Source: a virus. Taken from it: a stretch of 25,444 nucleotides of DNA. Positions 1,588-25,444 of the stretch are shown here, piece by piece (position 1 is the first letter of the stretch; every line of letters begins with the position of its first letter). Location: the IMG/VR virus record IMGVR_UViG_3300028008_000099, positions 1-25,444 of that record, one strand, 5' to 3'. A program made the position numbers and the translations under genes. A model generated the notes under the pieces. The model was given only the letters and a program-made list of their open reading frames with translations, searched no databases and was not told where the DNA came from.

Positions 1588-3036
1588 TTAAGCAACCAGC
1601 ACTTGATTGACGCTGTTTTCTGCGGCCACCACGTTATTGGACGGCTCGTGAAAATCGATTTGTCTTGGTATTCCGATGTCATAGACCAGTGCTGGGATCT
1701 CCGGCGCAACCAGTGCAAGCTCTGGCGCAGCCAGGTTATGATCCTGATTAATAGACGTCTCAGCTATTGAGGGAGATTGCGCGCTAAACCCTACACCAGA
1801 CAGCAAATGGTTTTGGATAAATATAACGTTTGAAACATCGGCTGAGCCTACATCCAAATTCGTGCCCACAAGTTCATGATGCTGAGCAATCGTAGCACTG
1901 CCAATCTCATGCGAAGCCGTTAGCTCAGGGGCGCTTAGTTTATGGTCTTGCTCAATAACCGTGCTGGCCAGCTCAGCTGCTGCCGTATGAATATCAGCGC
2001 CGCCAAGTGTATGATCCTGGTTTAGCGTGGCGCTATCTAAAACTGGGGCCGCTGTGGCAAGGTTAGGAGCCTCAAACGTCTCTTCCTCTGACATTGTCAG
2101 GGTATTTAAAACAGGCGACTGTGTGGCCAGCTCAGGCGCAGCCAGGGCATGATTTTGCGATATCGCTGCAGAGCTCAACACAACCGGGAAAGTAATTACG
2201 TTGTTGCCGCTTATGTTGTGATCCTGGCTAATTGCAGCCGTATCAAATTGTGGTGCCTGCAACGTCAGCCCAGCGCCAGTCAGCTGATGATCTTGGTCGA
2301 TCTCTGTCGTTGCCAAACTTGGCGCGCTTGCAGCAATATCAGTAGCACCCAGATCATGCGTTTGATTGATCGCAGCCGTTGCCAAATCTGGGCCGCCTAG
2401 CGCAAACCCTGCCCCAGCGATATTATGATCTTGGTTAATCGTTACGCTGCCAATATCTGGAGCGTCACTTTCGCAAGCTGACCCCGCCAATTGGTGGTGT
2501 TGATTGATCGCTGCGGATGCAACGCTTGGGGTGCCAGCGGATAAATCAGGCAGTGTAATAAGATGCGTTTGCCCGATGGCAGAAGATGCCAAAGTCGGGC
2601 TGCTAGTTGTAATCGCCACAGCTGTCATTGGCACGACTGACTGAGCAGGCGGTGAGCCGAGAGATGCCGCGCCAGTTGTGATGTCAGACCCAGCAAGCTG
2701 GTGGTCTTGGCTAATTGCCGTGGTGTCTACGATTGCAGAATATGTGAGCAAGTTGGACGTCACAAACGTCTCTTCCTCGCTCATTGGCAAGCTATCTACA
2801 TCTGGAGCGCCTGTGGCAAAGCCCGTGCCGCCTAACTGGTGATCTTGGTTGAGTGTGGCGTTGGCTAAGATAGGCGCTGCAGTAATGACCCCAGAGGCTG
2901 TTAGACCATGCTGTTGGGATATTGCAGACGTGGCCAGCGTTGGCGACCCCGCAGTTATCCCATCAGCTGAAACAACATAGTTGAAGGAGCCGAGCGCCGC
3001 TATGGCGTCAGCTGAAATGGGGATCATCGCTGTCAT
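1588..3036 (-). CDS. Tandem-repeat tail fibre or adhesin-like protein (18 x 23 residues)
   Basis: The protein has 482 residues. Residues 1-34 are a short head and 448-482 a short tail. Residues 35-447 are eighteen back-to-back units, seventeen of 23 residues and one of 22. The consensus is close to A-x-A-I-N-Q-D-H-x-L-x-x-x-x-L-x-x-x-x-P-x-L-x. Fifteen units keep the histidine; units 3 and 13 replace the QDH part with SEEETF. The regular spacing suggests one coil or one beta-hairpin layer per unit in a rod, perhaps trimeric. Similar Q-x-H-x-L repeats occur, from memory, in alphaproteobacterial phage tail proteins. It lies between the assembly-chaperone-like gene and the BppU-like gene, consistent with a virion surface fibre. 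No clear ribosome site precedes ATG 3034-3036; ATG 3025-3027 is an alternative. Confidence 0.75.
   Translation of the reverse strand: MTAMIPISADAIAALGSFNYVVSADGITAGSPTLATSAISQQHGLTASGVITAAPILANATLNQDHQLGGTGFATGAPDVDSLPMSEEETFVTSNLLTYSAIVDTTAISQDHQLAGSDITTGAASLGSPPAQSVVPMTAVAITTSSPTLASSAIGQTHLITLPDLSAGTPSVASAAINQHHQLAGSACESDAPDIGSVTINQDHNIAGAGFALGGPDLATAAINQTHDLGATDIAASAPSLATTEIDQDHQLTGAGLTLQAPQFDTAAISQDHNISGNNVITFPVVLSSAAISQNHALAAPELATQSPVLNTLTMSEEETFEAPNLATAAPVLDSATLNQDHTLGGADIHTAAAELASTVIEQDHKLSAPELTASHEIGSATIAQHHELVGTNLDVGSADVSNVIFIQNHLLSGVGFSAQSPSIAETSINQDHNLAAPELALVAPEIPALVYDIGIPRQIDFHEPSNNVVAAENSVNQVLVA
1696..2934 (-). repeat. Tandem coding repeat, about 69 bases per unit, 18 units
   Basis: This region codes residues 35-447 of the repeat protein. 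The unit is conserved mainly at protein level: the plus-strand trace of the I-N-Q-D-H motif recurs about every 69 bases (for example atgatcctgattaat, tgatcttggttaat). Third positions differ between copies, so the array is old or under protein-level selection rather than newly expanded. Confidence 0.85.
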
Positions 3037-3060
3037 GGGTTAGCCCGTTTTTAGAGGGGT

Positions 3061-3348
3061 TTACTCTGGCTTGGTCGGCCAATCGCTATCAGCCAAATTA
3101 GGCCAATTCGCATGGGTAGTTATATCCCGCAAAGCCTGTCTGTAGCTTCGCATTTCATCGCTCACCGTTCTATCTGCCAGCGCATAAACGTCTGTTTCTT
3201 CTAGCAGCATATTTCTTGTGCGCGTATTTGCTCTTTCTATTTCAGACAGAAATAAACCTAAATCTGTGTAACCTTCAAATTGTCCAGTAGTTTCCGCATC
3301 CGCTGCTACAACAATGATATTTCCGTCTTTTTCAAACTTCTTAAACAT
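3061..3348 (-). CDS. Phage tail assembly chaperone-like protein (APC family)
   Basis: With the ATG at 3346-3348 the product is 95 residues; GAGG lies 9 bases upstream. A longer frame with upstream ATG at 3399 exists, but it would overlap the glycine-rich gene and lacks a ribosome site of this quality. The C-terminus, YRQALRDITTHANWPNLADSDWP plus TKPE, has the WxxYRQALRDI...FP...WPxxP pattern I associate with the phage tail assembly chaperone family near Pfam Phage_tail_APC. Members sit next to fibre or adhesin genes and are thought to help fold or attach them. Here it directly follows the glycine-rich adhesin, which fits a chaperone and client pair. The exact client is inference. Confidence 0.7.
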   Translation of the reverse strand: MFKKFEKDGNIIVVAADAETTGQFEGYTDLGLFLSEIERANTRTRNMLLEETDVYALADRTVSDEMRSYRQALRDITTHANWPNLADSDWPTKPE

Positions 3349-12064: not shown

Positions 12065-14046
12065 TATGAAAACGCCTTTGCATATGGACCACCGCGCCTT
12101 GCAGCATCGGCCACCGCCGCTTTTGTCGCCTCAGTAATCCGCGGCAACATTTGCTGCACTTCCGCGCGCACAGTTTGAGACACGCCGGTTGAGAGATTGA
12201 TGTTTTGATGGACAACGACGCCCGTACCACCACCGCCTAACGCATTGTTCGTTTGCACTGGACTTAAAAGCCGACCTGGTGTGCTTGGCACAAATAACTC
12301 TCTGCCAGATTCGCCTGTCATATACGGCGTCCCAGCATGAAGTTGACGTCCATGCGCACCGCCCTGGACAGCTCCTCCGCCAGACAAATCCGGCAATCCA
12401 AAGATCTGTTTAATTCCAGCAACCAATTGCTGAACCACATAGACGCGGTAAAGCTCTTTAATGACCGCGCTGGCCATATCGCTAACCGCATCCTTAAATG
12501 ACTTTGTGCCATCCACCATATTCATGAACGCACTTTCCATTTCACTATCCAGCGTATTCATCACAGACTTTAGATTGTCCAAATCTTGCGCGGTTGCGTC
12601 AGCACCAAGGCCCAAAGCCTGCAAAGATATCGGAGACAAATCGAGTTGAGCAATTAACTCTTGAAGGTTTGCCGCTGCGTTGCCCGCGGAGCCCGCCAAA
12701 CGATCACTTTTAGTAATTGGCTCAACGACCCCATTGCCAAACGAAACCATGCCGTCTTTTGCATTGTCTAGAGCCGTGCGAAGCGTGTTAATATTTTCTG
12801 CCGTAATACCCGCCTGTTCCGCTAGATCGGCGTCCGTATCAAGCATTGCAAATAGCTGCTTTTGCGCATCAACAATTGATTGCTCCAACTCTTCATAAGC
12901 CGCTTGCTGCGTTAGTTTTGGACCACTTATTGGGGATGCCATACCCGCAAGCGCCTCGCGCATCTGCCCAACGCGATCAGACAAGCTCTTATAAGCAGGC
13001 GACGATAGAACTAATGCACGCGCTTCGTCGATTGCAGCTTGCGCGTTTGCATGTCTGGCCTCAGCTTCATCAAGCTTTTCTGTGGCCATAGCCACTGACA
13101 TGTCTTTGGATTTTCCAAGCTGAATGTTCAGCTGACGAGACTGTCTAATTTCATCGCCCATCGCCAAAACAACATTATCCAGTGCAGTCTCAAGCTGGGC
13201 GTTTGGATTTAAAAACTCATGGACCGCTGAGTAAGCAATTCCAATATTCCTGGCGATTTTAGCCGCGGCTTCTGCCCCGCCAACTAACAGCGGAATGAGA
13301 TCCGCGAGCGCAACGTTTAAATTCGCCTTTATAACCTGAGAGGCAATTGCCAATTCTTCCTTAGCTTCGCGCGCTTCTTTAATCAGACTGTCTGACATCA
13401 CACCGCCAGCGTCGCGCAGCTTTTTACTCAAACGATCAAGCTCAGCGCCGTTGTCTCTAAATACGCCCTGCAGCAAAGTTGCATCAGAAGCCAACGCCTC
13501 AAGATAGAATGTCATTTCCTGTTGCGAGACGCCTGCCGTCTCTAGCGCGTTCACATACGCTCCCAGCTTTTGTTCCGACGAGAGATCCGCAAATGCATCC
13601 GCCGTTAAGCCAACTTTAGGTGCTATATTCTCAAAAAAGTCAGCCAGCGGCCCAGCGCCAGTAGCAGCATAGTCGCCAAACTTATCATTCACGTCCTTAA
13701 GGATATCCGACAGCTTGTCTTGCTGGATGCCAAAGTTAGAAGAGGCAAAAGCCAGTTCTTGAAACCGAGACGCGCTAACGCCTGCCACATCCGATAAATT
13801 GCCAATTTCAGCAGTAGCGTTAACCATATTTTGAAGCTGATTTACGCTAAATGCAGCCGCTAAAACAGGAGCAAACCGTTTTGCAGCACTTGCCAATTGG
13901 CCAAACGCTGCGCTGGTGCCGCCCAAATCCTTTTTTGATTTATTTGCAAACCGCTCAACACGGCGCTGCGCGCGATCCATTGCCTTGGTAAACTGCTTAT
14001 CTCGCGCGGATAATATGACGTTAAGCTCTTGAGCGCTGATTGCCAT
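12064..14046 (-). CDS. Tail tape measure protein
   Basis: The 660-residue, alanine-rich and mostly helical protein sets tail length and is held inside the tail tube. Early residues (AQELNVILSARDKQFTKAMD) and RAQRRVERFANKSKKDL are basic and amphipathic. Hydrophobic stretches occur near 53-75 and 240-275. A SLPDLSGGG-like glycine segment (about 555-570) leads to a C-terminal region with GTPYMTGESGRELFVPSTPG, a motif I know from tape-measure ends. At about 1.5 angstroms per residue the tail would be near 100 nm (family rule of thumb, not measured here). ATG overlaps the frameshift-frame stop of the chaperone gene (TAATG). Confidence 0.9.
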   Translation of the reverse strand: MAISAQELNVILSARDKQFTKAMDRAQRRVERFANKSKKDLGGTSAAFGQLASAAKRFAPVLAAAFSVNQLQNMVNATAEIGNLSDVAGVSASRFQELAFASSNFGIQQDKLSDILKDVNDKFGDYAATGAGPLADFFENIAPKVGLTADAFADLSSEQKLGAYVNALETAGVSQQEMTFYLEALASDATLLQGVFRDNGAELDRLSKKLRDAGGVMSDSLIKEAREAKEELAIASQVIKANLNVALADLIPLLVGGAEAAAKIARNIGIAYSAVHEFLNPNAQLETALDNVVLAMGDEIRQSRQLNIQLGKSKDMSVAMATEKLDEAEARHANAQAAIDEARALVLSSPAYKSLSDRVGQMREALAGMASPISGPKLTQQAAYEELEQSIVDAQKQLFAMLDTDADLAEQAGITAENINTLRTALDNAKDGMVSFGNGVVEPITKSDRLAGSAGNAAANLQELIAQLDLSPISLQALGLGADATAQDLDNLKSVMNTLDSEMESAFMNMVDGTKSFKDAVSDMASAVIKELYRVYVVQQLVAGIKQIFGLPDLSGGGAVQGGAHGRQLHAGTPYMTGESGRELFVPSTPGRLLSPVQTNNALGGGGTGVVVHQNINLSTGVSQTVRAEVQQMLPRITEATKAAVADAARRGGPYAKAFS

Positions 14047-14611
14047 TAGCCATATCTCCTAGCCAACTCTCTGGCCTCTTCTAAAGACGGTGCGTCCGTG
14101 CCTGCGCTTTTGGGGCTGTGCGCTTCGTTCCAACCATCAAATATTAAGAAAACATCGCGCGGGATCATGTCCCGAATTTCGTCAGGCTTATAATTCGCAA
14201 CAACAGTGTTTTTGATTAAGCTGCGGACGTTAAGACTGCGGGGTTTTCGCCCTCGGTTACTTTTTTTTTGACCTTCGCGTCGTCTAAAACATCCGGCATA
14301 AACGCCACGCCCAGGACAGCTTGTGCCACTTGATAGTATCGCATCAAATTAGCTGGGCCAGACGCCTCAACCAATCGATCCGCATCCGGGTCTTTCATAC
14401 CCCCGCCAACCAAGGCCAAAGCGATCAAATCTTTTATTTCTTTAGAATTGGGCTTGGTGCCGCGGTCAAAAAAGCCATCCCAAACCTCAAAAATACCTCG
14501 GTGCTTATCTTCAAACCGCTCGATCTCACGGTTGCGCAGCAGAAACGCATAGGTGACGCCATCGATTTCCTCGACAACGCCACCACGGGGTGCATCAGCA
14601 GTAATAGCCAT
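14046..14611 (-). CDS. Tail assembly chaperone, long form made by -1 frameshift (G-T type)
   Basis: The short chaperone frame ends at 14216. The -1 frame is open from the A9 run at 14261-14269 through to a TAA at 14046-14048 and lacks any early start codon of its own. Slipping back one base after K115-K117 would give a 188-residue product whose added part includes NYKPDEIRDMIPRDVFLIFD and GWNEAHSP...LEEARELARRYG. The TAA overlaps the tape-measure ATG, as expected when the extension is a real gene end. In lambda and many siphophages the two forms are made in a fixed ratio and help load the tape measure and tube. The extension is coding-like, and this is my explanation for the otherwise gene-free 169 bases. 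Confidence 0.75.
14216..14611 (-). CDS. Tail assembly chaperone, short form (GTA gp10 / TAC-like)
   Basis: The 131-residue acidic and helical protein has an N-terminal beta part (EEIDGVTYAFLLRNREIERF) and a helical part (SKEIKDLIALALVGGGM, RYYQVAQAVLGVAF). This is the layout of phage tail assembly chaperones, including the gene-transfer-agent gp10-like type. It lies between the major tail gene and the tape measure, the standard place. ATG overlaps the upstream stop (TAATG). Near the end, K115-K117 are coded by nine A in a row, the slip site for the longer form. The family assignment is from position and pattern. Confidence 0.78.
   Translation of the reverse strand: MAITADAPRGGVVEEIDGVTYAFLLRNREIERFEDKHRGIFEVWDGFFDRGTKPNSKEIKDLIALALVGGGMKDPDADRLVEASGPANLMRYYQVAQAVLGVAFMPDVLDDAKVKKKVTEGENPAVLTSAA
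14261..14270 (-). promoter_or_regulatory. Slippery heptamer region for -1 frameshifting (C then A9)
   Basis: On the coding strand the site reads GTC AAA AAA AAA GTA in the chaperone frame. Nine A allow A-AAA-AAA tandem slippage by one base. The downstream -1 frame stays open to the tape-measure start, and the zero frame stops 45 bases after the run. No pseudoknot was identified by eye. Confidence 0.72.
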
Positions 14612-20531: not shown

Positions 20532-20831
20532 ATGCGAGTAATCTTGGGATTATTATTTACTGCTGTCGCAACTTTTGTGCAGGCTCATGAACCCCAAAAT
20601 GGGATCAAGTTTATTTCTGCATATGATAAGTACAGCGAAGTGTTTACCGTTTTAGTTTCAAATACTTCACGGTCGCAAGGCAGGTACCTAAAATGCGTTG
20701 CATTCGATGGACGCGGAGTGCCATTATCGCAATCAATAGCCATGACAGTAGAGTATGCCACCGAACTCGATTTTTCACATAACGGTAGTATTCGCGCAAA
20801 CGAAGTTAAAAATGTTAAATGTCATTATTAA
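20532..20831 (+). CDS. Exported small protein, beta-rich with two cysteines (moron candidate)
   Basis: The 99-residue protein has a signal peptide (MRVILGLLFTAVATFVQA, then HEP). The mature part carries FTVLVSNTSRSQGRYLKCVA, then FDGRGVPLSQS and ends NEVKNVKCHY. C55 and C97 could pair. The pattern, a strand holding VSNTS, a Cys-aliphatic-FD-x-xG turn and a final strand, resembles small beta-sandwich carbohydrate-binding or adhesion folds, but this is shape only. The ribosome site GGAGA precedes ATG by 6 bases. The next plus-strand gene starts 22 bases on, so the two form a pair inserted between terminase and portal. Confidence 0.75.
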   Translation: MRVILGLLFTAVATFVQAHEPQNGIKFISAYDKYSEVFTVLVSNTSRSQGRYLKCVAFDGRGVPLSQSIAMTVEYATELDFSHNGSIRANEVKNVKCHY

Positions 20832-20852
20832 TTGAACCGGTGGAGAATTAAG

Positions 20853-21323
20853 GTGCGGAAACTTTTTTTGACCATTTTATTCAGCTTAGGATTTACAACA
20901 TCTTTTGCAGGTGAAAATGACACTTACCTACTTAAAAAATGCACCCTTATTTCAGACGTATTTTGGCAATTGGAAGCTTCAAAAAAAAATTCGGCAGGGT
21001 TTCACGATTTTTTTGAAGAATCCACTAAAGATGGACCAGTTGTGATAAACGTAAATTATGTCAAAGATATTTTAACTTACTCATACGACACCGGATTTCC
21101 GAGAATTTTTAAATTATTTCATCGAAATGAATCGAACACCGTTTTAGGCACTTGGGAAATGATTTTTAAAAGTCATGAGGATTGGAGCGACGCGACAAAC
21201 CAAACTACCTTAAGAATCTCAGACCCTTTTTGTGAGCAACGAGAAAAAAAATCGCAGCTCGCTGAACACTGGGTCAGTGCGAATGTTTTTTACCATCGTA
21301 TCTTCGATTGCCCATGTGAATAA
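20853..21323 (+). CDS. Exported protein with C-terminal CPC motif (moron candidate)
   Basis: I place the start at GTG 20853-20855 (156 residues) because GGAG lies 7 bases upstream and the signal peptide (MRKLFLTILFSLGFTTSFAG) begins there; a TTG 7 codons earlier has no such site. The mature protein has C30, C127, C153 and C155, the last two in a C-terminal FDCPCE. There is a stretch of aromatic residues (NVNYVKDILTYSYDTGFPRI) and a WEMIFKSHEDW segment. CPC could bind a metal or exchange disulfides. It ends 2 bases before the convergent stop of large terminase. I do not recognise the family. Confidence 0.72.
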   Translation: MRKLFLTILFSLGFTTSFAGENDTYLLKKCTLISDVFWQLEASKKNSAGFHDFFEESTKDGPVVINVNYVKDILTYSYDTGFPRIFKLFHRNESNTVLGTWEMIFKSHEDWSDATNQTTLRISDPFCEQREKKSQLAEHWVSANVFYHRIFDCPCE

Positions 21324-22840: not shown

Positions 22841-23046
22841 CAGTCCCACCGATTAAACAAGCGGCGCAAGAAATAACTGCGCAACATGCTGATCACGGTA
22901 AATACCCACCCAATGGCAAAGCTATCGCCAATTGTAACCGCGTAGCCGAAGGCGGGCAGCACCAACAAGTTAGCTCCAACTGCGACTAAAAACCCAACAG
23001 TGACGTTGGTAACGGCCTCAAGCGCGCTTCTTTTTATTGTCTGCAT
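22840..23046 (-). CDS. Small two-span membrane protein beside terminase (DUF7220-like)
   Basis: The 68-residue protein has two hydrophobic segments, about 12-35 and 41-55 (NVTVGFLVAVGANLLVLPAF, AIGWVFTVISMLRSY), and a basic end (FLRRLFNRWD). The E-x-x-x-NV-x-VGF start, GDSFAIGWVFTVISMLRSYF and RRLFNR are features I recall from a conserved phage family placed next to terminase genes. Function unknown. It starts inside the methyltransferase gene (29-base overlap) and its stop overlaps the terminase start. Confidence 0.72.
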   Translation of the reverse strand: MQTIKRSALEAVTNVTVGFLVAVGANLLVLPAFGYAVTIGDSFAIGWVFTVISMLRSYFLRRLFNRWD

Positions 23047-24256
23047 TGGTTAATTCAAAATATGTCTTGCCGCTTTCGACATGAATAGCCTGTTGCCCGG
23101 TGTAATCTTGCCAGCGGTTAATGATGACATCGCAATAGACCGGATCTAGTTCCATCATCCGTGCGCGCCGTCCGTGTTTTTCGCAGGCGATAGCTATGGT
23201 GCCGGAACCAGCAAAACTATCCAGCACAAGATCATCGCCCTTTGTGTTGTTCAGCATTTGATATTCAAACAGCTCCACTGGCTTCATCGTTGGGTGCTCT
23301 GCATTCCGGTTTGGACGATCAAAGTTCAAGATCGTGGTCTGCTTGCGATCCGCGGCCCACAGATGCGCAGCGCCATCTTTCCAGCCGTATAAACAGGGTT
23401 CATGCTGCCAGTGATAATCTTGGCGACCCATAACCATCGATTGTTTTTTCCAGATTAAACACTGCCGGATCGTCCAGCCAATGTCGTGCGCCGCGCCGCG
23501 GAAGTTGTAACCCTCGCTATCTGCGTGCCAGATATAAAAGACAGAGCCAGCCTTCATGACCGCGTCCGCAGCAGTGTAACTATCCGCCAAGAATTGACGG
23601 AAATCCGTATCGCTCATTTCATCGTTTTTAATCACCAAGGCATCCGCGGTTTTGCCTTCATAGGCTACGTTATAAGGCGGGTCCGTTAGCCACATATCTA
23701 CAAGCTGATTTTCGCAAAGCTGCTCTAGTTGGTCTATGCTAGTCGCATCGCCGCACATCAAACGGTGCTTGCCCAAGGTCCAAATATCGCCTGGCACCGT
23801 AACAGGGTTGTCTTTTGCCTCCGGCACCTCATCGTCATCGGTAAGCCCCTCGCCCGCTTTGTGCAGCAAGCTAACCAGCTCGTCTTGGCTGAAGCCCATC
23901 AGTTCACCGAAATCGCCAGCTAAATCTTCCAGCTCAACTTTTAACGCGTCGATGTCCCAATCAGCATTCAGAGCGAGTTTGTTATCAGCAATCACCAGCG
24001 CCCGGCGCTTTCGATCATCAAGACCAGTAACTACTATGGCAGGAACAGTATCCATCTTGAGTTTTCTGGCAGCCAATACGCGCCCGTGCCCAGCGATAAG
24101 GTTGTTGCTGTCATCAATCAGAACAGGATTCGTAAACCCAAATTCACGGATTGATGCGGCAAGCTGAGCAACCTGATCATCGCTATGGGTGCGACTATTT
24201 AATGCGTATGGGATCAAATCCTCAACGCTGGTGATTTTATGTTGGTAAAATGTCAT
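23018..24256 (-). CDS. ParB-domain / beta-class DNA methyltransferase fusion
   Basis: The 412-residue protein has two parts. Residues about 8-130 are a ParB/Sulfiredoxin-like domain (LNSRTHSDDQVAQLAASIRE, then NNLIAGHGRVLAARKL). Residues 155-390 are an N6-adenine or N4-cytosine methyltransferase, with DPPY at 192-195 before FAGSGT at 348-353. That motif order is that of the beta class (as in CcrM). The segment between (roughly 270-325) is the likely target-recognition part. AAAGGCAA lies just before ATG. No cognate nuclease is visible, so it is probably an orphan enzyme that protects phage DNA or tunes packaging. Position between the two terminase genes is common for this fusion in phages. 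Confidence 0.88.
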   Translation of the reverse strand: MTFYQHKITSVEDLIPYALNSRTHSDDQVAQLAASIREFGFTNPVLIDDSNNLIAGHGRVLAARKLKMDTVPAIVVTGLDDRKRRALVIADNKLALNADWDIDALKVELEDLAGDFGELMGFSQDELVSLLHKAGEGLTDDDEVPEAKDNPVTVPGDIWTLGKHRLMCGDATSIDQLEQLCENQLVDMWLTDPPYNVAYEGKTADALVIKNDEMSDTDFRQFLADSYTAADAVMKAGSVFYIWHADSEGYNFRGAAHDIGWTIRQCLIWKKQSMVMGRQDYHWQHEPCLYGWKDGAAHLWAADRKQTTILNFDRPNRNAEHPTMKPVELFEYQMLNNTKGDDLVLDSFAGSGTIAIACEKHGRRARMMELDPVYCDVIINRWQDYTGQQAIHVESGKTYFELTNADNKKKRA

Positions 24257-25409: not shown

Positions 25410-25444
25410 AGACTAGGATTGAGCTTCCTACCCACCCCCCCAAT

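Follow-up and report, generated by a model that had tools for sequence, protein, structure and literature searches.

A conserved run of nine adenines in siphophage tail chaperone genes suggests that the long chaperone form is made by transcriptional slippage

Introduction

How does a tail assembly chaperone gene that stops in one reading frame give rise to a longer product whose remainder is encoded in another? The usual answer lies with the ribosome: tail-chaperone frameshifting is textbook ribosomal recoding, and in lambda it yields short and long forms in a ratio of about 30:1 (PMC5009743). The question arises afresh for a marine phage sequence, IMG/VR record IMGVR_UViG_3300028008_000099, which was analysed over its whole length of 25,444 bases (hereafter the window), since the frame change here coincides with an uninterrupted run of nine A (A9) on the coding strand. 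In a literature search conducted mostly outside subscription journals, the recoding of tail chaperones was described as ribosomal and polymerase slippage was described for dnaX, IS elements and secretion genes, and no paper joining polymerase slippage with tail chaperones was found.

Results

The features on which the argument turns are the following (window coordinates).

15033-14611, minus strand: major tail (tube) protein, upstream of the chaperone (PF06199 Phage_tail_2, E 1e-27)
14611-14216, minus strand: tail assembly chaperone, short form, 131 aa, zero frame (PF11836 Phage_TAC_11 / GTA-gp10, 30.2 bits)
14269-14261, minus strand: candidate slippage site, nine A on the coding strand, read AAA AAA AAA and followed by G
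14261-14046, minus strand: second half of the long form, 71 codons and TAA, -1 frame
14046-12064, minus strand: tape measure protein (phrog_2854, E 9e-65)

The order tube, chaperone, tape measure is the usual one and puts the chaperone in the G/GT-type position, and the match of the short form to its profile exceeds the curated cut-off of PF11836 (30.2 versus 27.8 bits). Fusion of the two frames after residue 117 gives a long form of 117 + 71 = 188 residues, and the TAA of the -1 frame (14048-14046) overlaps the ATG of the tape measure gene at 14046. An initial annotation had already placed the A9 near the end of the 131-residue chaperone, described the -1 frame as open from there to the overlapping TAA and used it to account for 169 otherwise gene-free bases between the zero-frame end and the tape measure gene (14215-14047); all of these coordinates, the size of the gap and the 188-residue product are confirmed. 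The same annotation noted that the -1 frame has no early start, and this holds as well: the frame has its upstream stop at 14351 and its first ATG at 14168, already within the conserved part, with no ATG, GTG or TTG between the two in the window. A Pfam search with the second half of the long form returned no family above cut-off.

In order to see what is conserved at this site, we assembled 401 loci from IMG/VR, GTDB genomes and phage records, corresponding to 217 distinct loci and, after clustering at 90% amino acid identity, to 109 lineages. As the later queries stopped short of the A-run, the run could not bias the catch. The first and the second half, used as separate queries, retrieved sets of loci that overlap and in which the second half occupies the -1 frame. 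The alignment with relatives that the initial annotation had proposed shows that almost all of some 200 distinct relatives conserve this frame, with protein-like substitution. Counted over the last 45 codons of the frame in ten pairs of relatives, the substitutions were distributed over the three codon positions as 56:25:153, a pattern expected of coding sequence, which argues that the extension is a real part of the protein. From this conserved reading, the short form appears to carry an overlapping-frame extension as in G/GT-type chaperones, and a recoded chaperone of the GTA-gp10 type, predicted to exist in two forms, is well supported.

Having a conserved reading frame of its own past the zero-frame stop, the second half might instead be a separate gene with its own start. 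However, in 98 of the 109 lineages the stretch from the nearest upstream stop to the conserved part contains no start codon (ATG, GTG or TTG), so that the second half must be reached from the first, and in Rhodobacter phage RcapNL a single ORF covers both halves; a separate gene is thus highly improbable. The RcapNL protein, gp16, is homologous to both halves (48% and 39% amino acid identity) but differs in being a single fused ORF of 190 residues, with A7 at the junction and a long form that needs no shift. It is encoded at 2501-3073 of locus L099, where a short form may be made as well or the A-run may have been miscalled. Roseobacter phage CRP-6 and Paracoccus phage Pthi1 had also been considered and were rejected, being relatives in the tape measure protein only, with different chaperones.

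Next to the second half, it is the length of the run that stands out. Exactly nine A are found in 88 of the 109 lineages, whereas ten occur in 5, eight in 1, seven in 5, six in 7, and three or four in 3. Each of the three codon phases is represented among the 88 A9 lineages (33, 6 and 49), and the tree requires a minimum of eight changes of phase; the base 3' of the run is G in 81, C in 7 and T in none. No other sense-strand run of nine or more A exists in the 327,721 bases of the same loci, where runs of eight and seven number 5 and 20, respectively, and this absence covers GC-rich loci too, in which AAA makes up only one third of the lysine codons. Likewise, none of the 7 other Lys-Lys-Lys stretches in these loci is written AAA AAA AAA. 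The use of all phases, together with the lack of comparable runs elsewhere, indicates that homopolymer length is conserved rather than a series of codons, and selection on the KKK peptide alone was rejected as the cause on these grounds. The two frames, the fixed A9 and the conservation of the second half can be read directly from the sequences; judged by these comparisons, the site is more than chance, since the second half is conserved in the frame that is needed and the related loci hold no second run of such length. The initial annotation had regarded the homopolymer site, as well as the coupling of the long form's stop to the tape measure start, as specific to this phage. Neither is: the first recurs across the family as described, and the overlap is also present in several close relatives.

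Homopolymers are error-prone, and one contig of 2,140 bases (L336) reads A10 at 1814-1823, with the frames fused in the sequence itself. Such a case recalls the objection, raised along with the first description of the site, that the run length differs and the frames fuse without slippage. The run length would then be miscalled and the frames truly fused, be it through an indel error or in a decayed gene. Yet independent metagenomes and isolate genomes share this A9, in about 190 distinct loci altogether, a recurrence that refutes this reading in practice. The isolate genomes include those of Rhodobacteraceae such as Oceaniglobus, Salipiger, Oceanicola, Aquimixticola, Sulfitobacter and Roseovarius, which rules out an artefact of metagenome assembly; isolates with a prophage and A9 are, for example, Sulfitobacter sp. 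HI0040, Roseovarius aestuarii G21610-S1, Oceanicola sp. 22II-s10i and Aquimixticola soesokkakensis CECT 8620. The A10 of L336, of which one nearest relative (L309) has A9, may reflect natural variation, an error or an RNA origin of the contig; the only A8 lineage (L228) is a single contig whose nearest relatives, L221 and L222, have A9.

In light of this, which machine slips on the run? The initial annotation invoked G/GT-type ribosomal frameshifting, of which the recoded long form is well supported and the ribosome as the slipping agent is the weaker reading. Programmed -1 frameshifting would proceed by a tandem slip of tRNA-Lys on A_AAA_AAA or A_AAA_AAG inside the A9. A heptamer of the form X_XXY_YYZ is indeed available in every phase, as each A9 contains A_AAA_AAA in reading phase, and those phase-2 sites that are followed by G also contain A_AAA_AAG, which is among the most efficient motifs in E. 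coli (PMC4066793). A slip of this kind is possible without stimulators, and lambda-type chaperones do slip at the ribosome (PMC5009743). Moreover, close relatives use sites of the ribosomal type. Among the 15 lineages with shorter runs, which include the fused RcapNL, a ribosomal motif of the classic kind is seen in most: A_AAA_AAG limited to six A in, for example, L104, L357, L359 and L362, runs of A7 in others, and the lambda heptamer G_GGA_AAG in place of the A-run in L361 and L412, which belong to the same gene family.

What ribosomal slippage leaves unexplained is the run itself. A ribosome needs seven bases in a single phase to slip on A_AAA_AAG, and does so more often where stimulators help (PMC4066793), whereas here nine A are held in all three phases, with A7 and A8 nearly absent, which favours the polymerase. 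Two features sought in a transcriptional slippage site are found here, a homopolymer of A or T that is at least about nine bases long and a length conserved whatever the codon phase, and in many bacteria transcription slippage turns productive once a run reaches A9/T9 (PMC1088944; PMC5009743). A further sign of polymerase slippage that we looked for, early closure of the frames other than -1, did not differ clearly from shuffled sequences.

RNA structure points in the same direction, albeit less firmly. The window has no downstream hairpin at its site (z +1.1), as opposed to strong examples among the relatives without A9 (L108, z -5.3), and the downstream hairpins of those 15 relatives are more stable than those of GC-matched A9 sites (-25.3 versus -18.3 kcal/mol, p 1e-3). 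The difference is modest after normalisation to shuffled sequences (p 6e-3) and reaches no significance in phylogenetically independent pairs, of which too few are supported, so that the contrast between the two kinds of site is suggestive only. Shine-Dalgarno-like motifs lie upstream of the site in 8 of the 15 heptamer lineages and in 28 of the 94 others, against a background of about 10-11%; at A9 sites they are weak and their enrichment is mild, leaving room for some ribosomal share there. One might accordingly imagine polymerase and ribosome slipping at the same run and contributing comparable shares of the long form, as A9 satisfies both kinds of site. We consider this very unlikely, given that the ribosomal share lacks independent support and that one subclade of relatives needs no ribosomal slip.

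In that subclade, comprising six contigs (L306, L310, L313, L315, L318 and L319), the A9 is present and the second half has to be read in the +1 frame, whose open stretch begins only within the A-run. One ribosomal slip by -1 ends at a stop in these contigs, whereas removing one A or adding two produces the fusion. Ribosomal frameshifting would place the second half in the -1 frame of every member that shares the site; this is the case in the window but not in these contigs, whose long form lies beyond the reach of a single -1 slip. The +1 arrangement thus favours the polymerase as well, with the limit that it represents one subclade. Given the A9 in three phases, the +1 subclade and a structure that is absent from the window and strong at relatives' heptamers, we regard ribosomal frameshifting as an unlikely source of the long form at the A9 sites.

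Discussion

Taken together, the comparisons lead us to propose, with a probability of roughly 0.7, that the host RNA polymerase makes the long form possible by transcriptional slippage at A9. The templated mRNA with nine A would encode the 131-residue short form. In a minority of rounds the polymerase would realign the transcript by one base on the run, and mRNAs with ten or seven A would then yield long forms of 188 or 187 residues by ordinary translation, while those with eight or eleven A would meet a stop right after the run and give products of 117-118 residues. A transcript computed with ten A encodes exactly the 188-residue fusion. The rate of slippage would set the ratio of short to long form and, if lambda gpG/gpGT is a guide, the short part may coat the tape measure protein as the extra domain recruits tube subunits. 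What we infer from these patterns is the identity of the slipping machinery, polymerase and not ribosome, together with the resulting ratio and the gpGT-like role in assembly.

Akin to lambda gpG/gpGT and its siphophage counterparts, the gene lies between the tube and tape measure genes, the short and long forms would share an N-terminus, and the -1 extension reaches up to the start of the tape measure gene. As opposed to lambda, where a heptamer acts with stimulators, the run here is fixed at nine A in all codon phases; moreover, the chaperone belongs to the Phage_TAC_11/GTA-gp10 family, and one subclade shifts by +1. A parallel in the site itself is dnaX of Thermus thermophilus, which likewise has nine A on the sense strand and two product lengths. 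Thermus dnaX relies on polymerase slippage and its E. coli counterpart on a ribosomal frameshift, and the A9 sites and heptamer relatives described here appear to alternate in the same way. It differs in being a cellular gene in which slippage makes the shorter product, whereas the longer one would be made here in a phage tail chaperone, and in that RNA heterogeneity, here a prediction, has been reported for it. Bacterial IS elements, Shigella mxiE and Citrobacter tssM slip on A or T runs of about 9-11 bases; in these, too, a base added within the homopolymer restores the long product and no hairpin is needed, although they are not phage structural genes. Nor is their run length known to stay at nine over a family of such breadth. 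For Citrobacter tssM, slippage on A11 takes place without stimulators and gives products of 10 to 15 A (PMC4256274).

It also seems reasonably likely that a mostly marine, alphaproteobacteria-associated family of siphophages and prophages sets its chaperone ratio in this manner, by polymerase slippage at a run kept at exactly nine A, with repeated switching between this and ribosomal frameshifting at hairpin-associated heptamers. If the polymerase indeed slips here, the same stoichiometry would be set one step earlier than in the textbook case, and natural relatives would show how, in a single gene family, either mechanism takes the place of the other, as is known for dnaX. The long chaperone is probably missing from the annotation of hundreds of viral contigs, and the prophages of the Rhodobacteraceae isolates provide ready test material.

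Several other features of the window may be recorded. A second A9 run is located at 20981-20989 on the plus strand, inside the ORF 20832-21323; this ORF and its neighbour 20532-20831, also on the plus strand, lie between the minus-strand portal and terminase genes, and both have signal-peptide-like starts. The minus strand at 23018-24256 encodes a fusion of a ParB N-terminal domain with an N6/N4 DNA methylase domain, and a run of seven C (25435-25441) is found at the end of the contig.
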